From Okeania sp. SIO2C9 (GTDB lineage Bacteria; Cyanobacteriota; Cyanobacteriia; Cyanobacteriales; Microcoleaceae), in contig NZ_JAAHGO010000063.1 in the NCBI RefSeq assembly GCF_010672455.1, positions 1-35,048 of the forward strand: a stretch of DNA of 35,048 nucleotides, written 5' to 3'. Of the stretch, positions 641 to 21,297 are shown in pieces; position 1 is the first letter of the stretch, and each line of letters opens with the position of its first letter. The translations under genes were made by a program, and so were the position numbers. A model generated the notes under the pieces. It did no database searches. It saw nothing but the letters and a program-made list of their open reading frames with translations, and was not told where the DNA came from.

Positions 641-2032
641 TTAAAAATCCACAGTTAAAGGTGCCCTTGGAAAAGGAATCACATCTCGAATATTCCCCAT
701 TCCTGTCATAAACTGCACCACTCTTTCAAATCCCAAACCAAACCCTGCATGAGGAACCGTACCATACCTACGCAAATCTAAATACCACCATAATTCCTCC
801 TTATTCATCTCCTGTTCATCTATCCTTCTCTCCAAAACATCCAAACGTTCTTCCCTCTGAGAACCACCAATAATTTCCCCTACCTTCGGCACCAAAACAT
901 CCATCGCCCTAACCGTCTTACCATCATCACTTAAACGCATATAAAAAGCCTTAATTTTTGCTGGATAATCAGTCACAATTACAGGTTTTTTAAACAATTC
1001 CTCACACAAATAACGTTCATGTTCTGACTGTAAATCTAAACCCCACTCTACCGGATATTCAAACTTTTTATCTGTCTTTTCCAACAAAGAAACAGCTTCA
1101 GTATAAGTAATCCTTTCAAAACTATTATTAATAATCGTATCCGCCGTTTCAAAAACTGTTTTATCAATCCGTTTATTGAAAAATTCCATATCCTCCGGAC
1201 AACTTTCCAAAACAGACTTAAAAATATGTTTCAGAAATTCTTCAGCCAAATCCATATCCCCTTCCAAATCACAAAAAGCCATCTCCGGTTCAATCATCCA
1301 AAACTCAGCCAAATGCCGAGAAGTATTAGAATTTTCAGCTCTAAAAGTCGGACCAAACGTATAAACATTACTAAAAGCAGTTGCCATAATTTCCGCTTCT
1401 AACTGACCACTAACTGTCAGAAAAGCAGACTTTCCAAAAAAGTCTTGACTAAAATCAATGTCTTGTTTTTCTGTTAAAGGAACTTTCTTTAAATCTAAAT
1501 TAGTAACTGTAAACATTTCCCCCGCACCTTCACAGTCACTAGCAGTAATAATAGGAGTATGAACCCATAAAAAACCTCGTTCTTGAAAGAATTGATGCAC
1601 AGCATTAGCACAAACATTTCTCACCCGAAAAACTGCTCCATAAGTATTAGTTCGTCCTCGCAAATGTGCAATAGTGCGGAGAAACTCAAAAGAATGACGT
1701 TTTTTCTGCAAAGGATAAGTTTCAGGATCAGCATCACCATAAGCGATCGCCTTTTCTGCCTTAAGTTCAATTCTTTGTCCTTTTGCTGGCGACTCTACCA
1801 AAATACCACTCACTTCTACTGATGCACCTGTATTCATTTGCTGCAAACTTTCTTGATAATTTGGTATATCGGGATTTAATACCACCTGTAGGTTAGCTAA
1901 ACATGAACCGTCATTAACCTCTACAAAAGCAAAATCTTTCAACTCTCGCTTAGTACGTACCCATCCTTGAATTGTTACTTTTTCATCAGGTTTACCGCTT
2001 CTTAAAATTTCAGCAATTCGTTGCTTTGTCAT
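641..2032 (-). CDS. asnS: Asparaginyl-tRNA synthetase
   Basis: Charges tRNA-Asn with asparagine using ATP, in the cytosol. At 463 residues it has the family's usual length. An N-terminal OB-fold anticodon-binding domain (about residues 1-115, with [22 protein letters not shown]) is followed by a class II aminoacyl-tRNA synthetase core. Motif 2 lies at about 223-250 ([19 protein letters not shown]) and motif 3 at 430-437 (GFGLGFER). GAGEMF (169-174) and the C-terminal IRDVIPFPR are characteristic of AsnRS rather than AspRS or LysRS. The ATG at 2032 opens directly into the OB-fold ([10 protein letters not shown]), so the start is well placed. It stands alone on the reverse strand with a repeat-rich intergenic region upstream. 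Confidence 0.97.
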
Positions 2033-2123
2033 TGATTTAATCCTGTCTATTAGACTTACTATTTTGATTAATTTTTGGTATTTTCTAGTATTAGAGAGTC
2101 TAGCACAAATTTTTAGTAGTTGT

Positions 2124-2235
2124 CATTTCAGTTATCAGTTATCAGTATCTTGTGGAATAAGGAGGCTGGAAATAAGAAATCTTATTTTTTTTATCTTATA
2201 AAGAGGAGGCGTAACTACCCAAATTTTTCGGTAAT
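2124..2235 (-). repeat. Composite dispersed repeat, copy 1
   Basis: Read on the reverse strand this runs ATTACCGAAAAATT, then a GCCTCCTCTTT... hairpin-like segment, an A-rich stretch, CAGCCTCCTTATT, and ends in a tandem ACTGATA heptamer array followed by ACTGAAATG. The same order of blocks is found at 4561-4671, 19450-19621 and 31521-31648. The first block resembles the left end of the intact TnpB element at 16366-16406. Confidence 0.7.
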
Positions 2236-2340
2236 AAACTGGGTTTTTGGGTAAATTTTGTATTTTGATGCACTAGCGTTCTGATAAAACATGATATTTT
2301 TGCTATTTACATATTCCTTAGTTTTAGTTGTTATGTGTAA

Positions 2341-2465
2341 TACCAAATTGAAATGAAGCTGCATAGAATAATATTTCAAGTAGAAGTGACCGCAGGTAAG
2401 CGTAGATAAAGATAAATCAATTTAATGAATTTCATCATTCTATGCAACTTCATATAAAATTGGTA
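2341..2465. repeat. MITE-like element with 33-nt terminal inverted repeats
   Basis: The left arm (2341-2373, starting TACCAAATTGAAATGAAG) and right arm (2433-2465, ending CATATAAAATTGGTA) are inverted repeats matching at about 27 of 33 positions, separated by about 60 bp without an ORF. The size, the AT-rich termini and the lack of a gene fit a miniature inverted-repeat element. No transposase with matching ends is present in the window. Confidence 0.65.
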
Positions 2466-2505
2466 TAAGTCCTAACCAATAATTTTAACAATTGAAGAAC
2501 ATAAA

Positions 2506-3447
2506 ATGAAAATTGCTTACATTAAACCCAGTTTCCCTAACGAAAAAAGAGTCGGTTTATTACCACAGCATTTATCTTACTGTAGTCCAGAAGACGAACG
2601 CAGATTTGAACAAGGTTATGGGGAAAGTTTAGATATTCCAGATGCAGCTTATGGAGAAAGTGGTGGTTATTCTAGAGAAAATCTATTTGCTTGGGCAGAT
2701 GTAATTTACTGTATTAAAGTTCCCCAACCCCAAGATTATCAATATTTTAGAGAAAATCAAACTCTTGCAGGTTGGATTCATCCCTTCGGTGCATCAGGAA
2801 GATATTTTAGAGAATACTGCGCTGAACCAAAAAATGTCCGATTATTTGATATTACCAATTGCATCTCTATTCGTGTTACTCAAGGAAAAACAGAAACTTT
2901 AAATATTCCCAGAGATATTACCCATAAAAATAGTATTTTAGCAGGTTATGCCTCGATGATGCAAGCAATTATGTTGCGAGGTGGAATTACCCACAACGAT
3001 AGAATAGCAGTATTTGGTTCGGGAAATGTCGCTTATGGAGTCTTGAAATATTTTGCCAGCAAAGGAATTGAACCTGTATTGCGTCGCCGAAGTAATATCG
3101 AGTTAATGCAGCAAGAATTTAAAGACTATGATATATTTATTAATGCAGTAGAAATTGCTCAAGGAGATGCAGCAATTGTTACTTTTGAAATGCTTGATTC
3201 TATGAAATCTACAAGTTGGATCATTGATGCAGCAGCGGATACAGGTAGAGCCATTCAAGGGACTCATGCAACTAAAATTGAAGATCCAATCTATCAAGAT
3301 GAGCAAGGACATACATTTTATGTCGTTGATAATTCTCCATCTCTGCTGTATCGAGAAAGTAGTGAAGCCGTTAGTGAAGGTTATGCCAAGCACTTTTGGG
3401 TTAAACCAATGAGCTATTGGTATAGCGATTTCTGTATTGTACGTTAA
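2506..3447 (+). CDS. N5-(carboxyethyl)ornithine synthase-like dehydrogenase
   Basis: Belongs to the alanine dehydrogenase / N5-(carboxyethyl)ornithine synthase superfamily, which reductively couples pyruvate to an amino group using NAD(P)H. At 313 residues it is close to bacterial carboxyethylornithine synthases and shorter than alanine dehydrogenases (about 360-370). The N-terminus (IKPSFPNEKRVGLLP, 6-20) carries the superfamily's substrate-binding arginine region. A Rossmann nucleotide motif lies at 168-178 (AVFGSGNVAYG). The start at 2506 has a weak purine-rich site (GAAGAA) upstream. The last 52 bp around its stop are repeated downstream at 4345-4396. The exact substrate (ornithine, lysine or another amine) cannot be read from sequence. 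Confidence 0.75.
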   Translation: MKIAYIKPSFPNEKRVGLLPQHLSYCSPEDERRFEQGYGESLDIPDAAYGESGGYSRENLFAWADVIYCIKVPQPQDYQYFRENQTLAGWIHPFGASGRYFREYCAEPKNVRLFDITNCISIRVTQGKTETLNIPRDITHKNSILAGYASMMQAIMLRGGITHNDRIAVFGSGNVAYGVLKYFASKGIEPVLRRRSNIELMQQEFKDYDIFINAVEIAQGDAAIVTFEMLDSMKSTSWIIDAAADTGRAIQGTHATKIEDPIYQDEQGHTFYVVDNSPSLLYRESSEAVSEGYAKHFWVKPMSYWYSDFCIVR

Positions 3448-10201: not shown

Positions 10202-10444
10202 TAAATATACTTCTTGCAGAGGTTAGGGAATTGTTGATTTTATCTCTTGAATTAATTTCATTAAAACTTTTGCAAGAGGTCTAATATTAATACTTACTTT
10301 ACTTGAAAGCTTTTTCCCACTTGATACGGTCTCGGGGTCTCCCGTTATAATTGAGCCATTTAACGGGAGGGGAATTGCCGAGCTGCAAATTGAACAGGTA
10401 TCGATTGATGTTCAAATATAGCAATAAAGAGTAGTATAAAAATT

Positions 10445-11717
10445 ATGATAATTACTCATTGCTACAAAATTAAGCCCACTTGTGAACAGTCAGTCAAAAT
10501 AGATTATTGGCTAGAACTCCTGCGAAGACATTGGAATTATGCACGCTTGTCAAAGACTAGATTGGTTAAATACAACTAGATGTCAAGTTGACCGTTGTTC
10601 ATTAATTTCATGTCCTATTGGTGAAATTTCTAGTAGACCAGATTATTATTTTCAGCAATCAGCACTTAAACAGACAAAAAAGTTATTTCCTGACTACAAA
10701 GAAATATATTCAGAAGTCCAGCAAATTAACTTACAAAGACTAGATAAAGCCTGGAAACGTTGGCTAATACTTGATAAAACGGGTAAACGAGGAGGAGACC
10801 AAGATTTAAGAAGTCTGGCAAATTAAGATCATTTTGTTTTAGTAGAGTTAATCATCCCAAAGCAGCAATAAAATTTGATGGACAACACATAATTATTAGT
10901 AGGTTTGGTGCTATTCCAGTGATAGTTCATAGACCAATTCCAGATGGGTTTACGATGAAAACTGCAATTATAACCAAAAAAGCTGATGGCTATTATGTCA
11001 GTTTTAGTTTAGAAGATAAATCAGTTCCCAGTCTAATTCCTAAAAATAATATCAAAACTGCTGTAGGTATTGATTTAGGGTTAAAAGAATTTTTAACTAC
11101 TAATACTGGTGAAACTGTTTCTGTTCCTAAATTCTATAGAAAATCTCAATCTAATTTAGCCAGAAAGCAAAAAAAAGTATCTAGAAAAGAAATTGGTTCC
11201 AATAACTGGAGGGCGGCACAAAATAGAATAGCTAGATTGCACCAACATATAGCCAGGCAAAGAGAAGATTCCCACTTAAAAACTGCTCATAAGTTAGTTA
11301 AAGAATATGATTTAATTGCTGTAGAAGACCTGAATATTAAAGGTCTAGCTAAAAATACTAAACTATCAAAATCAATTTATGATGTAGCCTGGGGAGCTTT
11401 TATTGAAAAATTGAATGCAGTGGCGGTAAAACGCGGTTTTCATGTAAGTAGGGGCGAATGGCCATTCGCCCGTACACCCTCACAACACATCACAAAATTG
11501 TAGTAATTGTGGTCAAAAAGTACCTAAAACTTTATCAGTTAGAACTCATTCTTGTCCTAAATGTAAAATAGTTTTAGATAGAGATGAGAATGCTGCAATT
11601 AACATATTAAATAAAGCATTAAATGAGGTGGGTATCATCTTGTCTGCTTGTGGAGGCTTAGATGTTAATCAGCCGGTGAAACAAGAAACTTCTTTGTTTG
11701 AGAAGCTCCCGTTATAA
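10445..11717 (+). pseudogene. tnpB: TnpB RNA-guided nuclease, frameshifted and interrupted
   Basis: The protein can be followed end to end only by changing frame three times. It starts at 10445 (MIITHCYKIKPTCEQSVKID). It shifts near 10540-10550 into QRLDWLNTTRCQVDRC, shifts back near 10797 at PRFKKSGKLRSFCFSRVNHP, and shifts again at about 11448-11475, where a 28-nt palindromic repeat is inserted. All key parts survive in pieces: RuvC-I GIDLGLKEF, RuvC-II AVEDLNIKG, the CSNC and CPKC zinc-finger halves, and RuvC-III DRDENAAINI, ending SLFEKLPL. The decay is therefore recent in sequence terms, but no full nuclease can be made. The element could still be moved by a TnpA acting in trans. Confidence 0.9.
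11448..11475. repeat. 28-nt palindromic repeat inserted in tnpB
   Basis: The core GGGCGAATGG (11452) and CCATTCGCCC form a perfect 20-bp palindrome, flanked by GTA and TAC. The insertion breaks the tnpB frame between the RuvC-II domain and the zinc finger: the upstream frame resumes one base off at PHNTSQNCSNCG. A degenerate relative lies at 16244-16268, and a palindrome of the same length with a different core at 21467-21494. Confidence 0.8.
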
Positions 11718-12427
11718 TCTTTGATTTAACGGGAGAGAACTTCACTCTCAGCAATCATCTGAATTCGACTTATTATCACCCCACAAGTAACATTATTGGG
11801 TGTTGCGTTGGGCTTTTATTTTAAAGACCAGGGTTAAGAGATCTAAAGCTTTTATCACTCATTAAAAGCAATAGCTGATAGCTGACGGCTGAATGCTTAC
11901 AAGCTATATTTAAGGAATAATATTTTACATTACTCTTTAATTCTTATTCCTAAATAATATAAAGTTTGTGTTATTACTATATTTTTTTTAGTAGATAACA
12001 CAAACTTTTTTTTGAGATGGGTGTAATACTAGAAACGTTTAGAACTTTTTAACTTTTGACTTTTAAAATTTGCTTTTTGTAGAGCAAAAAGCGACTATGG
12101 GACTAGCAAAAAAATAGACTACCAGCTAATTGATTGATAGAGTAGAGATTGCTTCGGCTAGCTTGACTATTTCCGATTGAGCTTGAGCCTAATATTATCG
12201 CCTCGCAATGACAGCCACGGAACTTTTTATACACTAATAATCGGTACTTTATTAAGTTGCAAATCCCTAACTATCTAAAATTCATATAAAATTTAGCCTC
12301 CTCTTGCTCAAGCCTAAATAAGATAAACGTTAGACATATCCAGTCATAGAAGTCCAAGTAAAGGTAAAACCTTTACAAATCATCTATTCACCACTGGAGC
12401 TAATTAATATGGAGGAACTAAATACTT
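11718..12427. promoter_or_regulatory. fbp upstream region
   Basis: About 700 bases upstream of fbp without a gene. It holds a strong hairpin at 11961-12013, heptamer-like runs (TAGCTGA, about 11870-11895), and a stretch resembling a common cyanobacterial interspersed repeat (GATTGCTTCGG ... CCTCGCAATGACA, 12147-12212). A clear ribosome site TGGAGGA (12410-12416) precedes the fbp start. Promoters for fbp and the downstream sugar-phosphate genes are expected here but not identified. Confidence 0.4.
11961..12013 (+). terminator. Strong hairpin followed by a T-run
   Basis: The arms AAAGTTTGTGTTAT (11961-11974) and ATAACACAAACTTT (11995-12008) pair perfectly over 14 bp and are followed by further Ts to 12013, the form of an intrinsic terminator. 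No intact gene ends just upstream; the nearest is the broken tnpB, 244 bp away. It may insulate fbp from upstream transcription, or be a palindromic repeat. Confidence 0.55.
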
Positions 12428-13486
12428 ATGGTCAATACCCAGGACAACCTCCACATTCGTCTGGAGGAAACACAGGCATTAGATCGTGATTGTACAACCT
12501 TATCACGTCATGTTCTACAGCAACTTCAGTTCTCACCAGATGCTCAAGATATCAGCGCCCTAATGAATAGAATAGGGTTGGCCGGCAAGTTAATCGCTCG
12601 TCGCCTAACTCGTGCTGGATTAGTAGAAGACGCTTTAGGGTTTACTGGCACAGTTAATGTCCAGGGAGAATCCGTCAAAAAGATGGATATCTATGCCAAT
12701 GATGTATTTATCTCGGTATTTAAGCAAAGTGGCCTTGTCTGTCGCTTGGCATCCGAGGAAATGGAAAAACCCTATTATATTCCAGAAAACTGTCCAATAG
12801 GTCGCTATACATTACTTTACGATCCCCTAGATGGCTCCTCTAATCTAGATACAAATCTAAATGTTGGTTCTATATTCTCAGTTCGCCAACAAGAAGGTAA
12901 CGATGAAGATGGTTCCGCTCAAGATTTACTCCAAAGTGGACGTAAACAAATTGCTGCTGGTTATATTTTATATGGACCTAGCACAATGTTGGTGTATTCA
13001 ATCGGCACCGGCGTTCACGCATTTACTCTTGACCCTAGCTTAGGTGAGTTTATTCTCGCTAATGAGAATATTAAAATCCCCGAACATGGCCCAATATACA
13101 GTGTGAATGAAGGTAACTTTTGGCAGTGGGATGATTCTATGCGGGATTATATCCGCTATGTTCATCGCCATGAAGGTTATACTGCTCGTTATGGTGGTGC
13201 ATTAGTTGGAGACTTCCATAGAATTTTATACCAAGGTGGCGTATTTTTATACCCAGGTACAGTGAAAAAGCCAGAAGGAAAATTACGCCTACTATATGAA
13301 TCAGCACCTATGGCTTATTTAATAGAACAAGCTGGTGGTAAAGCTAGTACGGGTACTGAAGAAATATTGGATGTTGTAGCAAATGAGTTACATCAACGTA
13401 CACCATTAGTGATTGGTAGTAAAGAAGATGTAGCACTTGTAGAGTCTTTTATCAAGGAACAAGCACGCATTTCTCATCAGGGTTAA
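12428..13486 (+). CDS. fbp: Fructose-1,6-bisphosphatase class I
   Basis: Hydrolyses fructose-1,6-bisphosphate to fructose-6-phosphate, feeding gluconeogenesis and the oxidative pentose phosphate route. The 352 residues match class I length. The metal-binding acidic SEE (109-111), the metal/phosphate signature DPLDGSSN (132-139), the fructose-6-phosphate loop [12 protein letters not shown] (254-265) and [11 protein letters not shown] (288-298) are all present. A GGAGGA ribosome site precedes the ATG. It is the first gene of the fbp-tal-zwf-opcA set known in heterocystous cyanobacteria, where these genes supply NADPH in the dark and for nitrogen fixation. Here a TnpB element separates it from tal. 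Confidence 0.97.
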
Positions 13487-13514
13487 TACAAAAAAAACTT
13501 CTCTAAAATCCATC

Positions 13515-14850
13515 AAACTTACTCATAACTCATAGCTATCAAACTAAAATGAGTAAGTTTGTTCAGTTGTCTATCCATTGAGTCGTTATTACCTACAATT
13601 AAGGTATGAAGCTAGTTGAACGTCATGTTATTAGCAAATCACATTATTTGTGGTCAGAAATTGACCAGAAGGCTTTTTTGTCAAAAAATCTGTTCAATTT
13701 AGCCAATTACCATTATCGCCAATATTTCTTTGAAAACAAACAGAAACTCAGCTTTAATCAACTGTATCATCTAGTATCTGAAAGTTACGATTATCAAGTT
13801 TTACCTACCAAGGTAAGTCAGCAAATAATCAGAAGATTAGATTCTGCTTGGAGTAGTTATTTTGCAGCTTTAAAAGTATGGCAAAAACAACCCCATAAAT
13901 TTTTAGTCAGACCGAAAATAACTAAATATAAACATAAGACAAAAGGTCGAAATATTTTAGTCTATTCTCACGAATCAATTTACAAAAAAAATCTCAAAAA
14001 AGGAATATGTCACTTATCCATGAGTGAGTTAAAAATTCCCACATCACAAAAGTCAATTATAGAAGTGAGAATAGTACCAAAAAGCAGCTGTTATGTGATT
14101 GAAATACTCTATGAAAAATCGGAGAAAACAACAGATAATCAACAGGTAGCAGGAATAGACTTAGGAGTGAATAACTTAATGGCTGTAACTACAAATCAAA
14201 CAGGTGTAGCACCTCTATTGATAAATGGCAGACCATTAAAAGCGATTAACACCTTTTATAATAAAAAACGCTCCCTGATACAATCCCAACTGAAAACAAA
14301 AAATAATCAAAACTCATCTAATCGGTTAAATTATCTAACTCATAAACGAAACTGTAGAATAGAAAATTATTTACATACAGCTAGTAAAAGAGTCATAGAT
14401 TGGTGTGATGTACACCAAATAGGAACCTTAATAATTGGACATAATCAAAAGTGGAAACAATCTATTAATCTAGGGAAAAAGAACAATCAACAGTTTGTTA
14501 ATATACCTCATTATAGATTAATAGAGATGTTAAGATATAAAGCTCAGTTAAAAGGGATAAAAGTAATAATTACTGAAGAATCCTATACATCACAATCAAG
14601 TTCATTAGATCAAGATGAATTGCCAAAATATGGTGAAGAAAAACCGATATTTAAAGGAAAAAGAATAGCAAGAGGATTGTATAAAACAGGAGAGAATAAG
14701 TTATTAAATGCTGATGTTAATGGAGCATTTAATATTGTTAGAAAAGTAATTCCTGATGTATTTGACCAGGGAATAAAGGGTTTGCCGTTTAACCCTGTAG
14801 TGCTTGACCCACTACGAATGACTAGACTTCATACCTTTGAGTAAGTTTAG
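13515..14850 (+). mobile_element. TnpB-only element between fbp and tal
   Basis: The left end has a hairpin with arms AAACTTACTCAT (13515-13526) and ATGAGTAAGTTT (13549-13560). The sequence TGAGTAAGTTT recurs at 14838-14848, just past the tnpB stop, marking the right end. A second hairpin (GTAGTG with CACTAC, 14797-14815) lies in the 3' end of the gene, as expected for an omega-RNA scaffold. No TnpA is present. It starts only 29 bp after the fbp stop. Confidence 0.65.
13606..14844 (+). CDS. tnpB: TnpB-like protein, atypical RuvC site, no zinc finger
   Basis: A 412-residue intact TnpB-family protein. RuvC-I (AGIDLGVNNLMAV, Asp185) and RuvC-III (NADVNGAFNIVRK, Asp370) are clear. At the RuvC-II position, where typical TnpB has a Glu (VEDL), it reads LIIGHNQKWKQ (Gly278), with no Glu. 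An acidic pair Glu324-Glu325 (ITEESYTSQ) precedes the site where the zinc finger should be, and the four zinc-finger cysteines are absent (SSSLDQDELPKYGEE). This matches a distinct TnpB branch, perhaps with the relocated catalytic Glu described for Fanzor-like relatives. Whether it cleaves DNA is open. The reading frame is undamaged over its whole length. Confidence 0.85.
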   Translation: MKLVERHVISKSHYLWSEIDQKAFLSKNLFNLANYHYRQYFFENKQKLSFNQLYHLVSESYDYQVLPTKVSQQIIRRLDSAWSSYFAALKVWQKQPHKFLVRPKITKYKHKTKGRNILVYSHESIYKKNLKKGICHLSMSELKIPTSQKSIIEVRIVPKSSCYVIEILYEKSEKTTDNQQVAGIDLGVNNLMAVTTNQTGVAPLLINGRPLKAINTFYNKKRSLIQSQLKTKNNQNSSNRLNYLTHKRNCRIENYLHTASKRVIDWCDVHQIGTLIIGHNQKWKQSINLGKKNNQQFVNIPHYRLIEMLRYKAQLKGIKVIITEESYTSQSSSLDQDELPKYGEEKPIFKGKRIARGLYKTGENKLLNADVNGAFNIVRKVIPDVFDQGIKGLPFNPVVLDPLRMTRLHTFE

Positions 14851-15056
14851 TTGAGCGGTTAATAGAACTTAACATCGGTATGTAAAAGTTTGTAATCAGA
14901 ACGCAGATTTAATTTCAACTTTCTGAATGCTGATCGCAATAGTAAAGAAATTTTGAATACTGCCTTTGAAAATTTAACAACTTAGTTATTTTTTTTGCAG
15001 TATATAAGAACACAAAAAACTCCAAGAAAAATAGTAACAATTAAGGTAAGACAGCT

Positions 15057-16205
15057 ATGACAACTAATCATTTGCTCGAAATTAAAGACTTCGGTCAGAG
15101 TATCTGGATGGATAATCTCAGTCGCAATATCATTGAGTCTGGGGAACTCAAAAATATGATTGCCCAGAAAGGGATTCGTGGTATCACTTCTAATCCCGCT
15201 ATCTTTGAGAAAGCGATCGCTGGTAATGCTATCTATGATGCAGATATTGAAGCAGGTATTAGCGCTGGTAAGTCAGTGATGGAAATCTACGAATCTCTTG
15301 TTTTTAAGGATATTCGTGATGCTTGCGATATATTTATGCCAGTCTACGAACAAACCAATGGATTAGATGGTTACATTAGTATTGAAGTCCCACCTACTAT
15401 AGCTAAAGATACAGAAAGTACCATCACCGAAGCAATTCGTTATTACACTGCTATCGGTCGCGAAAACTTAATGATTAAAATTCCAGGTACGCCAGAAGGT
15501 TTACCAGCAGTAACAAAAGTTATTAGTGAAGGAATTAATGTCAATGTCACTTTGTTATTCTCTGTAGAAAGCTATGTAAACACCGCTTGGGCTTATATTG
15601 AAGGTCTAGAAGCAAGAGCAGCTAAAGGAGAAGATGTCAGTAAAATAGCTTCCGTGGCAAGTTTCTTTTTGAGTCGCATTGATAGTAATATTGACGCTAC
15701 TATTGATGGCAAAATCAAGAATGTAACCGATGAAACTGTCAAGGCCAAATTAGAAACAGTTAAAGGAAAAGTAGCGATCGCTAATGCCAAAATAGCCTAT
15801 CAAGAATACAAAAAAATAATTCAGAGCGATCGTTGGAAAGCTCTATCTGCAAAAGGTGCAACAATGCAAAGGCTATTATGGGCAAGTACTAGCACCAAAA
15901 ATCCCACCTACAGTGATGTGATGTATGTTGATGAATTAATTGGGCCTGACACAGTAAATACTTTGCCTCCCCAAACTATAGATGCTTGTGCTGACCACTG
16001 TCATGTTGACAATCGAGTAGAGACTAATATAGAAGAAGCGACCCAGCTTATAGAAAGTCTTAAAGACCCCGATATTAATATCAATATCGACCAAGTAATG
16101 GACGAACTGCTAGCAGAAGGGATTGACAAATTTATCAAACCCTTTAGTTCTTTAATCAACTCCCTAGAAGAAAAAGTCAAGAAATTAGCACCTGTTTCAA
16201 GTTAG
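15057..16205 (+). CDS. tal: Transaldolase
   Basis: Transfers a dihydroxyacetone unit between sugar phosphates in the non-oxidative pentose phosphate pathway. The 382 residues fit the longer bacterial transaldolases found in cyanobacteria and actinobacteria. The motifs RGITSNPAIFEKA (41-53) and ENLMIKIPGTPEG (136-148) are clear. Lys141 in IKIPGT is the expected Schiff-base lysine. The ATG at 15057 is preceded by AAGGTAAGA. It normally follows fbp directly; here about 1.57 kb, mostly a TnpB element, intervenes, so co-transcription with fbp must pass through tnpB or has been replaced by a local promoter. Confidence 0.96.
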   Translation: MTTNHLLEIKDFGQSIWMDNLSRNIIESGELKNMIAQKGIRGITSNPAIFEKAIAGNAIYDADIEAGISAGKSVMEIYESLVFKDIRDACDIFMPVYEQTNGLDGYISIEVPPTIAKDTESTITEAIRYYTAIGRENLMIKIPGTPEGLPAVTKVISEGINVNVTLLFSVESYVNTAWAYIEGLEARAAKGEDVSKIASVASFFLSRIDSNIDATIDGKIKNVTDETVKAKLETVKGKVAIANAKIAYQEYKKIIQSDRWKALSAKGATMQRLLWASTSTKNPTYSDVMYVDELIGPDTVNTLPPQTIDACADHCHVDNRVETNIEEATQLIESLKDPDININIDQVMDELLAEGIDKFIKPFSSLINSLEEKVKKLAPVSS

Positions 16206-16243
16206 AAAATCTTATAGCAGGGAACAGGGAACAGGAAACATCT

Positions 16244-16268
16244 GTAGGGGCGAATGGCATTCGCCCTC
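16244..16268. repeat. Degenerate copy of the 28-nt palindrome
   Basis: GTAGGGGCGAATGG followed by CATTCGCCCTC is the repeat found inside the first tnpB, minus one central base and with the right end changed. It lies between tal and the third TnpB element, just after a GGGAACA heptamer array. Confidence 0.65.
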
Positions 16269-16468
16269 TCTATATATCTCTATATATAGAGTCTCTGCGT
16301 AAGTCCTGTTTATGTCATCAGTCATTTTCATGTCGGCGACAGCCGAAACGTAAAAAAAACGGTTTGACCGAAAAATTGGGTCTCAAGCCTCGCCCTTCTA
16401 GGGCGACTTTTTAGTTGTTAAGTGTTTCAATGAATATGTTACAATACTGTTAGTTTAAATATCGGATT

Positions 16469-17722
16469 ATGAAAGCTAGATTTAAGTATCGTATATATCC
16501 AACACCGGGACAAAAGCATCGATTAGCAAAGCTATTTGGTTGTGTTCGTGTTGTTTGGAATGATAGCCTAGCTTGCTGTCAAGAAAAATACAAATCCGGA
16601 GATAAGAAACCCAGTAACGAAAAGCTGCAAAAACAGTTTATTACTCAAGCAAAAAAGACTGAAGATAGAGAGTGGTTATCTGAAGTTTCTAACATACCAT
16701 TGCAGCAATCTTTGAATGATTTAAACCAGGCTTATCAAAACTTTTTTAAATCGACTAAAGGTCAGAGAAAAGGTAAACCTGTTAAACCTCCTAAATTCAA
16801 AACTAGGAAGTCAAAACAAACTGCTAGATTTACAAGGGGAGGTTTTAAAGTAGGTCAGCATAAAGTCTATTTAACCAAGATTGGAAAGCTAAAAATAGTT
16901 TGGTCAAGAGAGTTACCTGCTGCTCCATCATCAGTAACAGTAATCAAAGATTCAGCTAATAGATATTTCTTAAGTTTTGTAGTAGAAACTTGTGCCAAAA
17001 CCTCGTCTCATACTGATAAATCAGTGGGGATAGATTTAGGCATCAAAACCTTTGCTACATTTAGCGATGGTATAAAGGTTGATGGTCCTAAACCATTGAA
17101 AAAGCGGATTAAAAAGTATCGAAAGCTAAGTAAATCATTATCCAAAAAAATCTTAGGGTCTAAACGATATGAAAAAGCTAGATTGAGAGTAGCTAAATTT
17201 CATGCCAAACTCAAAGACACTAGGACAGATTTTCTGCATAAATTATCCACTGAAATAATTCGTGAAAACCAAACAATTGTTTTAGAGGACTTGAATGTTT
17301 CTGGAATGGTCAAAAACCGTAAATTATCCAGAGCCATATCAGATTTAGGTTGGCGGAAATTCCGAACACTTCTAGAAGGTAAAGCAGAAAAATACGGTCG
17401 CGATTTCAGAGTAATTAATCGTTGGGAGCCAACCAGCCAAAAATGCAGTTGCTGTGGTTTTCGTGGAGGCAAATTAGACCTTCAAGTACGAGAGTGGGAA
17501 TGCCTTAACTGTGGTGCCAAACACGATCGCGATACCAACGCAGCGATAAATATATTAGTCGCGGGCGGGCAGTCCGAGACAAAAAAGCGCACCGAACCCG
17601 CGCCGCCGAAAGGCGCAAGGGAACGCGGAGCAAGAAACGGACGTGGAGGCAAGCGTCAGACTACTGCCAAAGTAGCAGCAGCCTGTGAGACGTCAACCCA
17701 CCGAGGAGCTAAGGCTCGGTAG
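16469..17722 (+). CDS. tnpB: TnpB RNA-guided DNA endonuclease, intact
   Basis: A 417-residue canonical TnpB. It opens MKARFKYRIYPTPGQK, the usual N-terminus. All catalytic parts are present: Asp189 (GIDLGIKTF), Glu273 (IVLEDLNVSGM) and Asp355 (DRDTNAAINIL). The zinc finger is complete, with Cys326/Cys329 (KCSCC) and Cys345/Cys348 (ECLNC). Such proteins use an RNA from the element's right end to cut DNA next to a short target-adjacent motif, which helps the element persist after transposon excision. The last 50 residues (APPKGARERGARNGRGG...) are Gly/Arg-rich and GC-rich because they overlap the RNA scaffold. It is the only TnpB here with nothing visibly missing. Confidence 0.93.
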   Translation: MKARFKYRIYPTPGQKHRLAKLFGCVRVVWNDSLACCQEKYKSGDKKPSNEKLQKQFITQAKKTEDREWLSEVSNIPLQQSLNDLNQAYQNFFKSTKGQRKGKPVKPPKFKTRKSKQTARFTRGGFKVGQHKVYLTKIGKLKIVWSRELPAAPSSVTVIKDSANRYFLSFVVETCAKTSSHTDKSVGIDLGIKTFATFSDGIKVDGPKPLKKRIKKYRKLSKSLSKKILGSKRYEKARLRVAKFHAKLKDTRTDFLHKLSTEIIRENQTIVLEDLNVSGMVKNRKLSRAISDLGWRKFRTLLEGKAEKYGRDFRVINRWEPTSQKCSCCGFRGGKLDLQVREWECLNCGAKHDRDTNAAINILVAGGQSETKKRTEPAPPKGARERGARNGRGGKRQTTAKVAAACETSTHRGAKAR

Positions 17723-17757
17723 GAATCCCCGTGCCTTTAGGCCGGGGAGGATGTCAA
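17560..17757 (+). ncRNA. Predicted omega-RNA (reRNA) scaffold of the intact TnpB
   Basis: From about 17560 the 3' part of tnpB becomes strongly GC-rich compared with its surroundings. It runs through two right-end hairpins to GGGGAGGATGTCAA, closely resembling the 3' scaffold of known TnpB reRNAs. The guide would be the bases after 17757, starting TGATGACCAAAAATTAAAAT. The 5' end of the RNA is a guess. Confidence 0.6.
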
Positions 17758-17919
17758 TGATGACCAAAAATTAAAATGAATGTAGCTAAAGACGCTGAAT
17801 TATTAAATTATTTCCTATAAAACAATCATAGTGAATTGTTGTTAAATCATAAAATAGCACACCTCGGCAAAAACAAACAAGCTTCTATAAGTAACTAAAT
17901 TAGAAGGAGTCAACAATAG

Positions 17920-19449
17920 ATGGTAGCACTACTAGAAAATCCCTTGCGGGTTGGGTTACAACAAGACCGAATCCCAGAACCCCAGATTTTAATTATCTTC
18001 GGTGCTTCAGGGGACTTAACTCAAAGGAAACTCGTTCCAGCACTCTATCAAATGAAGCTAGAGCGGAGACTCCCCCCCGAACTAACAATAGTCGGAGTAG
18101 CACGCAGAGAATGGAGCCATGATTACTTCCGCGAACAAATGCGGACTGGCGTAGAAGAATTTGGTGGTGGATTACAATCTGAAAACCTCTGGAATGACTT
18201 TGCCAAAGGGATTTTTTACTCTCCCGGTAATATCGACAAACCAGAAGATTACCAAAAACTAAAAGAATTTTTGAGTCAACTTGACGAAGAGAGAGGTACG
18301 CGAGGTAATCGCGTATTTTACTTATCTGTAGCACCACGCTTTTTTGGAGAAGCTGCTCAACAGTTAGGCGCTGCAGGAATGTTGGAAGACCCCAAAAAAC
18401 ACAGATTAGTAATTGAAAAGCCCTTTGGTAGAGACCTCAGCTCCGCTCAAGTACTGAATAAAGTTGTGCGCCAAGTTTGCCCAGAAGAGCAAATATATCG
18501 CATCGACCATTATCTAGGAAAAGAAACAGTTCAAAACTTAATGGTATTTCGATTTGCTAATGCCATTTTTGAACCCCTATGGAATCGTCAATTTGTCGAT
18601 AATGTGCAAATTACTGTTGCAGAAACAGTAGGACTAGAAGGACGTGCTGGATATTATGAAACATCAGGTGCCCTACGGGACATGGTGCAAAACCATCTGA
18701 TGCAGCTATTCTCCCTCACAGCAATGGAACCTCCTAATTCCCTCGATGCTGACAGTATTCGTAACGAAAAAGTAAAAGTAGTTCAAGCAACCCATCTAGC
18801 AGACTTAGAGCGCCTAGAGCTTTCTGCAATTCGTGGTCAGTATACAAATGGCTGGATGAAAGGCAAAGATGTACCAGCTTATCGGGAAGAAGGAGGAGCA
18901 GACCCCAACTCCACCACACCTACTTATGCAGCACTGAAACTCTACATTGATAACTGGCGTTGGAAAGGAGTTCCATTTTATCTACGGACTGGAAAGCGAA
19001 TGCCGAAAAAAGTCTCAGAAATCGCGATTCAGTTCAAGGAAGTACCATATTTAATGTTCCAGTCAGCAGCTAAACAAGCAAATCCTAACGTATTGGCTTT
19101 GCGAATTCAGCCAAATGAAGGAATTTCTATGCGTTTCGAGGTAAAAACTCCAGGCAGTTCCCTGCGGACTCGTTCAGTAGATATGGATTTCCGTTACGAT
19201 ACTGCTTTTGGTAAACCCAGTACAGATGCTTACAGTCGATTGTTGATTGATTGTATGTTAGGAGACCAAACACTATTTACTCATGGTGATGAAGTAGAAG
19301 CATCTTGGCGAGCATTAACACCAATACTAGGTATCTGGGATGCTCCAGCACCACCAGAGGCAATACCTTTGTATGAAGCAGGTACATGGGGACCAGTTGA
19401 ATCTGAACTTTTGCTCAACCGCGATGGTCGTCGTTGGCGCCGACTGTAA
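17920..19449 (+). CDS. zwf: Glucose-6-phosphate 1-dehydrogenase
   Basis: Oxidises glucose-6-phosphate to 6-phosphogluconolactone and reduces NADP+; the entry step of the oxidative pentose phosphate pathway and the main dark NADPH source. The 509 residues match the family. The dinucleotide motif [11 protein letters not shown] (28-38), EKPFG (166-170) and the active-site RIDHYLGKE (194-202) are present. Its only two cysteines, Cys187 and Cys445, correspond to the pair reported for thioredoxin control in Anabaena G6PDH. A strong AGAAGGAG ribosome site precedes the ATG. It is followed by opcA, 525 bp away across a composite repeat. Confidence 0.97.
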
Positions 19450-19974: not shown

Positions 19975-21297
19975 ATGAGTACAACACTTGTTGCCTTACA
20001 ACAACCAAAAGATATTTCTCTCGGAGAAATTGAAGCAGAACTTAGTAAAATCTGGCTCGGTCAAAATGGAGGAAAAGCGACTTCGATCGCTACCAGAGCA
20101 GCTACTTTCAGCATGGTAATATATGAACCCGAAGAATTTCAGCAACTTTTAGCTGGTTTGGGATTCTATAAAGGTGAAATAGATGGTATTAACGGCACTG
20201 AGGCCCGTGACGCTATCAAAGAAGCTCAAAAAGCTTATCAGTTACCAATAACAGGTAGGATAGACTCCGAGACTCTCGCCAAGTTACGCTCAGAATGGGC
20301 TGCGAAATCTCCAGAAACTCGGCAATTCCCCAACATGGATGCTAGAGGATTTAGCATTAGTGAAGTAATTGCAAATCAAAATCCCTGTCGAGTCATCACA
20401 CTATGTCCTACTTTTGGAGAAGATACAGGGGTAACAGCACAAGTTTCTGCTTATTGCCCAGTAAAGAAAAAGCAGTCTTCATTAACTTGCTGTGAATACA
20501 TTACCCTACGCGGAACTAAAGAAGCACTAGAAAGGGTGAGTGATGTCGTGACATCATTGATGATTCCTGACTTGCCGAAATTTGTTTGGTGGAAAGCTAC
20601 TCCCAACCCAGAACAAGAATTATTCCGAAACCTTTGTGAAAATAGCAATTGCATTATTCTAGATTCATCTTATTTTAGCGATGCAGATTCAGAATTTCTC
20701 AAAATGCAAGAGCTAATCGAAAATCAAACATATATTGCTGACTTAAATTGGCACCGTCTATCTGCATGGCAAGAGTTAGCTGCTGCAACTTTCGATCCAC
20801 CACAACGTCGTGCTGCTTTGAGTGAAATCGATAAAATTACTCTTGACTATGAAAAAGGGAATGCTGCTCAAGCACTAATGTTCTTGGGTTGGTTTGCTAG
20901 TCGTCTTGATTGGCAACCCACAGCTTATACTGAGATTGGTGGTGATTATGATATCGTTCATGTCAAGTTTACCAGTCCTACGGATAAGGAGATTTTAGCT
21001 GAGTTAGCAGCAATTCCTACCGCTGACTATGGTGAAATTCCTGGAGATTTAGTAGGCGTGCGTTTGGGGTCTAGTAATCCTAATGCTGACTGTTGCACGA
21101 TTTTATGTTCTGAAGATACTGGTTGTATGCGATTAGAAGCAGGTGGTAGTGCTCAGTCTTGTCGTACAGAGCAAGTTAGTGCTTTGAGCGACCAGAAAGC
21201 AGAATATTTGATGGCTCAACAGTTACAACGTTGGGGTCGGGAAGTTTTATATGAAGAGAGTTTGGCTATAACTGCTGACATTCTCAAGTTACGTTAA
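19975..21297 (+). CDS. opcA: Glucose-6-phosphate dehydrogenase assembly/activator protein OpcA
   Basis: OpcA promotes the active oligomer of Zwf and in cyanobacteria is a redox-dependent activator. The 440 residues show the OpcA core, with FPNMDARGFSISEVIANQNPCRVITLCPTFG (118-148), FVWWKATPNPEQELF (203-217) and DLNWHRLSAWQELAAATFDPPQRR. Residues about 55-104 (FQQLLAGLGFYKGEIDGINGTEARDAIKEAQKAYQLPITGRID...) look like a peptidoglycan-binding-1-type helical module. Cys378 and Cys384 have the 6-residue spacing of the Cys393-Cys399 redox pair reported in Anabaena OpcA, and are probably equivalent. The spacing from zwf is unusually long because of the composite repeat. Confidence 0.95.
   Translation: MSTTLVALQQPKDISLGEIEAELSKIWLGQNGGKATSIATRAATFSMVIYEPEEFQQLLAGLGFYKGEIDGINGTEARDAIKEAQKAYQLPITGRIDSETLAKLRSEWAAKSPETRQFPNMDARGFSISEVIANQNPCRVITLCPTFGEDTGVTAQVSAYCPVKKKQSSLTCCEYITLRGTKEALERVSDVVTSLMIPDLPKFVWWKATPNPEQELFRNLCENSNCIILDSSYFSDADSEFLKMQELIENQTYIADLNWHRLSAWQELAAATFDPPQRRAALSEIDKITLDYEKGNAAQALMFLGWFASRLDWQPTAYTEIGGDYDIVHVKFTSPTDKEILAELAAIPTADYGEIPGDLVGVRLGSSNPNADCCTILCSEDTGCMRLEAGGSAQSCRTEQVSALSDQKAEYLMAQQLQRWGREVLYEESLAITADILKLR

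Follow-up and report, generated by a model that had tools for sequence, protein, structure and literature searches.

Three tnpB-only mobile elements lie in and before the sugar-phosphate gene cluster fbp–tal–zwf–opcA of Okeania sp. SIO2C9, on a stretch of 35,048 nucleotides (contig NZ_JAAHGO010000063.1; hereafter the window). Very probably they represent three independent insertions of tnpB-only families that are scattered over the genome, and their meeting at this cluster is a matter of chance. An earlier note, made from the letters alone, had placed one element before fbp, one between fbp and tal and one between tal and zwf, with the gene order kept, which Pfam searches bear out; it had also read the first tnpB as broken and the other two as open frames, all three on the strand of the operon (+), and this reading holds (Table 1). 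Its statement that the three TnpBs represent distinct families and are not the product of local copying agrees with the searches for sibling copies, with the copy ends and with the domain content. What was observed, and observed accurately, is an ordinary situation: three mobile elements of a known kind in a tnpB-rich genome.

Density of tnpB loci in the genome

The three tnpB loci of the window fall within 6,045 bp of a genome of 10.88 Mb in 317 contigs. In a 2.4-Mb sample (22% of the genome; six contigs, chosen non-randomly) we counted 76 tnpB loci, 24 of them with a frame of at least 330 aa, using a tnpB model trained on the tnpBs of this genome, which distant ones may escape; this leads to an estimate of about 345 loci genome-wide. 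From a Poisson model one would expect 6.3 triplets as tight as this one (6,045 bp) in the whole genome and 1.39 in the sample; one was observed in the latter, on contig C223 and likewise with all members in one direction. Where a genome holds hundreds of tnpB loci, a striking cluster of them means little. The same model search returned no further tnpB in the window.

Non-tnpB open reading frames of at least 110 aa leave about 40% of the sampled DNA uncovered. Taking these frames as crude gene calls, we could assign 74 of the 76 loci to a gap: 41 to co-directional, 16 to convergent and 17 to divergent gaps, which make up 59, 19 and 22% of the gap bases, respectively. An enrichment in co-directional gaps was considered and ruled out, since insertions track gap length.

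Element 3, its empty site and its predicted guide

The ends of element 3 could be fixed from its siblings and from an empty-site alignment. The right end GATGTCAA is present in all 24 loci compared (the window and 23 siblings), 22 of which are preceded by T(T/G)AC and two by TCAC, and the family comprises, besides the window, at least 44 matches, 24 of them near full length. It should be noted that in the element searches 40 candidates were scored of 365, 139 and 501, and in another search 150 of 453, so that all copy counts are lower bounds. In the close relative SIO2B3 (L001), which shares 99.8% of its zwf protein residues with the window, a match that identifies the host genus as Okeania, the empty site reads TTTGAC/TGATGACC, with a junction that shows neither loss nor gain; the same empty junction is found in SIO1I7 and O. 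hirsuta. Insertion took place 3′ of a short motif of fixed sequence and left no target duplication, and the product of the element has the helix-turn-helix (HTH), OrfB_IS605 and TNB domains of tnpB-only members of IS200/IS605. A tnpA is absent, and ends resembling those of the family were met beside only a broken tnpA (L290). At that locus (G000:C269:20500-23500, positions 461-597) the ends are joined almost directly, in a miniature-like arrangement.

From the sequence, the 3′ end of tnpB3 together with the right end is predicted to form an omega-RNA scaffold, with the adjoining flank as guide. In a set of 23 copies (the window and 22 of the 23 siblings, L113 being left out) changes on both sides occur in 6 of the 29 predicted pairs of this fold. 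The 20 bases that follow element 3 agree with those that follow TTGAC in relatives at 20/20 positions for L001 and L003, 18/20 for L002 and 14/20 for L004. The predicted guide would therefore fit the empty allele, as expected from the retention model, in which a TnpB with a flank-derived guide is expected to target the empty allele (excerpts of PMC8612924 and PMC10278001). Element 3 offers a defined pair of empty and filled sites for TnpB-driven retention, with a predicted guide that matches the empty site of close relatives.

Elements 1 and 2

Element 1 ends in hairpins, CCCGTTATAA...TTAACGGG, with z-scores of -1.8 at the left and -4.8 at the right end; TTGAT occurs in the left end (10321-10325), and the right end closes in CTTCAC. 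Besides the window, its family comprises at least 64 matches, five spanning both ends and three lacking only the left 120-160 bases. The frame of tnpB1 is shifted by a palindromic patch, GTAGGGGCGAATGGCCATTCGCCCGTACA, which replaces about 11 nt of the patch-free siblings. This patch is found at the same position in nine of the 16 family-1 copies that cover the region, namely the window and eight others (L146, L148/L288, L149, L150, L155, L156, L158 and L159), and is absent from seven. Among the carriers is the copy on contig C135, which has the IS605 organisation of divergent tnpA and tnpB within shared ends that the window copy lacks; an AT-rich fold-back insert is also present in six carriers, L156 having a shorter one. 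A quick tree of the upstream flank (11 copies) shows carriers and patch-free copies interleaved, the carriers forming no single group; in a tree of the downstream flank (15 copies) five carriers cluster with a support of 0.998. Because sibling copies carry the patch, and in view of these flank trees, tnpB1 was probably ruined before and not after landing at this locus, and conversion between copies or repeated insertion are candidate origins of the shared patch.

Element 2 begins with G-GGGT and closes in GAGCGGT, with a left-end hairpin of z -4.1, and at least 49 matches, nine of them near full length, make up its family besides the window. In tnpB2 we read the motifs GIDLG, ITEESYTS and NADVNGAFN; Pfam gave no HTH match in this protein, and a nuclease-deactivated Cas12f was the only solved structure to match, weakly (73 residues, E 4.9e-6). 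Whether of IS607 or IS605 type, element 2 contains no transposase, and a distant relative (L287) adjoins a Y1 TnpA. The relative itself, at positions 1419-3190 of G000:C308:26500-30000, is a frameshifted TnpB that combines DPG in RuvC-I with the alternative glutamate, a combination described as rare and linked to IS607 in an excerpt of PMC10711439. PF00239 matches were also obtained. A candidate orthologous insertion in the Okeania genome G001 (93%) was ruled out, as its right flank is unlike that of the window.

The locus in relatives

The relatives are represented by the 80 top-ranking loci out of 411 related ones. In these, the tnpB model detects tnpB in none of 46 fbp–tal gaps, in two of 54 tal–zwf gaps and in none of 74 zwf–opcA gaps. 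None of the three elements is present in L001, L002 and L004, where the fbp–tal gap measures 363-433 bp and no tnpB was found upstream of fbp as far as the contigs reach; the tal–zwf gap of L001–L004 is free of tnpB and measures 303-460 bp, L003 beginning inside tal and being informative for element 3 only. The comparison across close relatives that the earlier note had proposed has thus turned out against a hot spot, as the readable ones carry none of the three elements here. The same note had held that families scattered at random over relatives' genomes would speak against its idea, and this is largely what we find: in four other Okeania genomes, with 40 candidates scored per genome, strong matches number at least 10, 19, 11 and 36 for the element-3 family and at least 3, 4, 7 and 10 for the element-2 family, so that both families searched for occur in all five Okeania genomes including that of the window. 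These four genomes are the assemblies of L001–L004 and hence not independent of those loci.

Some features of the relatives' gaps stand apart. In L001 (8160-8325), L002 and L004 the space between fbp and tal holds a repeat-rich spacer of about 160 bp, flanked by GTTAA and absent from the window, which may reflect either loss in the window or gain in the relatives; global alignment of the gap was uninformative left of element 2. Seven further loci (L009, L034, L056, L059, L070, L073 and L076) have tal–zwf or zwf–opcA gaps of 910-2708 bp without a tnpB match, and in Hydrocoleum CS-953 (L007, 1975-3562) tal matches as three overlapping pieces, as if tandem-duplicated or misassembled.

Table 1. 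Positions of the elements, genes and predicted structures in the window
Feature	Position	Strand	Basis and remarks
Element 1, tnpB-only, tnpB broken	about 10315..11745	+	Family-1 copy ends
tnpB1 pieces	10409..11714	+	Two pieces scanned, one with an OrfB_IS605 match
Palindromic patch in tnpB1	11447..11476	.	Comparison with sibling copies
fbp (fructose-1,6-bisphosphatase)	12428..13486	+	Pfam PF00316, PF18913
Element 2	13487..14859 (left bound 13480-13487)	+	Ends of 10 family loci including the window
tnpB2, 412 aa, open frame	13606..14844	+	Alternative RuvC-II glutamate (TEESYTS), DLG in RuvC-I
tal (transaldolase)	15057..16205	+	Pfam PF00923
5′ arm of conserved post-tal hairpin	16314..16324	+	Relatives' alignment; Okeania, Hydrocoleum, Trichodesmium
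TTGAC, target/TAM-like motif 5′ of element 3	16364..16368	+	Empty-site alignment, sibling ends
Element 3	exactly 16369..17757	+	Sibling ends, empty-site alignment; ends in GATGTCAA
Left-end hairpin and T run of element 3, terminator-like	16390..16410	+	Terminator scan, fold, family comparison
tnpB3, 417 aa, open frame	16469..17722	+	HTH, OrfB and TNB (Pfam); canonical D-E-D by reading
Predicted omega-RNA scaffold (tnpB3 3′ end and right end)	17640..17757	+	Conserved fold
Predicted omega-RNA guide (flank 3′ of right end)	17758..17777	+	Identical to the 20 bases after TTGAC in L001 and L003
zwf (glucose-6-phosphate dehydrogenase)	17920..19449	+	Pfam PF02781, PF00479
opcA	19975..21297	+	Pfam PF10128, PF20171

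Proposed course of events

We propose a model in which members of three families, each scattered over the Okeania genome, inserted separately, most likely moved in trans by the few TnpA transposases that remain. Among 20 matches to PF01797, three are full-length, unbroken and high-scoring, one of them on C135, back to back with tnpB in the relative of element 1, and a fourth is unbroken with 41 bits; it is the small number of unbroken TnpAs that points to movement in trans, and set against about 345 tnpB loci it bears on how tnpB-only elements spread. The elements would have settled in long stretches between genes, element 3 immediately 3′ of its short target motif, and would owe their persistence to having spared coding sequence as well as the conserved DNA that directly precedes tal and zwf. 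The intact TnpBs most likely work like those of IS200/IS605 in general, so that the 3′ end of tnpB and the right end would yield the guide RNA and the flank its guide; TnpB would then cut the empty site, leading to restoration of the element. For the operon, the insertions would presumably be neutral.

Several observations weigh against this model. The placement of tnpB loci is not perfectly random, since neighbour distances of up to 6 kb are found in 19 of 70 cases against 12.1 expected, a mild clustering, and 27 of the 41 tnpBs in co-directional gaps point in the direction of the genes (one-sided p 0.03). The excess of short distances makes triplets more likely, not less, and an orientation linked to replication could account for the directional bias. 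A recent parent of element 3 was not found, as the nearest full-length copies in the genus are 85-86% identical, next to a partial match of 985 bases at 93%, and for the left junction of element 2 the relatives contain no clean empty site. Furthermore, Okeania SIO2F4 (L006) and Hydrocoleum CS-953 (L007) carry a different tnpB elsewhere in the tal–zwf gap, an insertion that the two appear to share, which implies a second insertion event in this gap.

The hairpin after tal

Behind tal, most Okeania and also Trichodesmium relatives possess a conserved hairpin (9777-9870 in L001), of which element 3 splits the 3′ arm into TGAC (16365-16368) and TGATGAC (17758-17764). All six relatives examined for it show strong folding of this hairpin (z -3.5 to -6.8); the window sequence no longer folds it. 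Counted on a preset stem of 11 bp, not a consensus prediction, 92.9% of the cells are paired over nine relatives, and by reading seven of the nine keep every pair. Covariation is weak, with two pairs changed on both sides, a value reached by 32 of 500 shuffles, and SIO3I5 has a broken and Hydrocoleum a damaged stem. Element 3 additionally brings its own left-end hairpin, which is retained in 18 of the 24 family-3 loci under a strict rule and in three more with one T fewer, and which resembles a terminator that would protect tnpB3 against read-through. Terminator-like sites in the window are in no excess (four, against a shuffle mean of 2.5, sd 1.5). A promoter scan gave 10 sites against 14.9 in shuffles and hence no support for promoters, and an Rfam scan of the window gave zero matches at gathering score.

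Alternative explanations

That the fbp–tal–zwf spacers attract tnpB, by transcription, by single strands exposed in replication or by the post-tal stem-loop, would explain why three elements and the further tnpB of SIO2F4 and Hydrocoleum CS-953 are met here and why element 3 lies within a hairpin arm, and the relatives' long gaps above 900 bp may hold other insertions. Nevertheless, we regard such a hot spot as very unlikely, given that the number of triplets is within chance, that insertions follow gap length and that the corresponding gaps of relatives are almost free of tnpB. Its hairpin-targeted form was ruled out, as 19 empty sites of family 3, that of the window included, fold no better, at a mean of -10.3 kcal/mol, than control T(T/G)AC sites at -10.8 kcal/mol; the pattern used to select these sites requires T(T/G)AC, and the motif claim rests on the sibling copy ends instead. 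From the earlier note's interpretation, the different families and the tolerance of the gaps for insertions therefore stand, whereas the hot spot does not. Even less credence can be given to a domestication of the TnpBs at the metabolic cluster, although two intact frames lie within it and tnpB2 lacks the glutamate at its canonical place and has a nuclease-deactivated Cas12f as its sole structure match. TldRs are nuclease-dead TnpB repressors that have lost catalytic residues and keep a conserved neighbourhood with the regulated gene. Here, by reading, tnpB3 appears to retain D-E-D and tnpB2 D-Ealt-D with the alternative glutamate, the element ends are intact, the guide of tnpB3 is its flank and many siblings exist elsewhere in the genome; the absence of these TnpBs from the locus in relatives rules domestication out.

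The removal of the post-tal hairpin by element 3, together with the arrival of its terminator-like left end, might have changed read-through from tal to zwf in this strain. Because element 3 sits in the 3′ arm of a conserved hairpin, an effect on tal–zwf expression is possible, and the high pairing and strong folding in relatives argue for it. Against it speak the weak covariation, the relatives with a broken or damaged stem, the ordinary number of terminator-like sites and the intactness of the conserved blocks that immediately precede tal and zwf, with which each gene could be transcribed independently; we consider such a side effect unlikely, yet less so than attraction of tnpB to the spacers. 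The earlier idea that the intact tnpBs ride on the operon is weakened by the terminator-like left end of element 3, though such sites are no commoner than in shuffles; the co-transcription of the four genes that the earlier note gave for Nostoc/Anabaena concerns hosts other than the present Okeania, and neither the titles retrieved nor the excerpt of one review bore on it. As the predicted guide begins with TGATGAC, the 3′ arm of the stem, base pairing with the arm that remains at the 3′ end of the tal transcript is conceivable, but that this predicted guide RNA and the left-end terminator are now part of tal–zwf control in this strain is highly improbable. We therefore retain three separate insertions and a chance meeting as the explanation of the cluster.

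Comparison with known systems

Among the titles retrieved on TnpB or transposases in this cyanobacterial group, none was on this locus, PMC9950141 being, in its excerpt, on Trichodesmium. Element 3 resembles ISDra2 of Deinococcus radiodurans, in that tnpB3 matches the solved structure 8bf8 of its TnpB (E 1.7e-66; the top match, at E 1.7e-76, is an AI-designed nuclease) and in that ISDra2, in excerpts of PMC8612924 and PMC2806898, combines a right-end-derived RNA carrying a flank guide with insertion 3′ of a short motif. It differs from ISDra2 in lacking tnpA and in following TTGAC (T(T/G)AC in the family) instead of TTGAT. The TTAC left and TCAA right of IS608 from Helicobacter pylori, as given in an excerpt of PMC5934647, are similar to T(T/G)AC and GATGTCAA of element 3, while IS608 possesses the tnpA that element 3 lacks. 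With the TnpBs of alternative glutamate treated in an excerpt of PMC10711439, tnpB2 shares DLG in RuvC-I and a glutamate immediately ahead of the zinc-finger region; in contrast, a cysteine of the site, present in the sibling L117, is read by eye as serine in the window. With IS1341-type tnpB-only elements, finally, the elements described here share the arrangement of one tnpB between insertion sequence (IS) ends. In one survey of this type 10 of 18 elements measured 1252-1393 bp, and the copy numbers found here far exceed the six-species averages given in the same survey (PMC9956272, excerpt).

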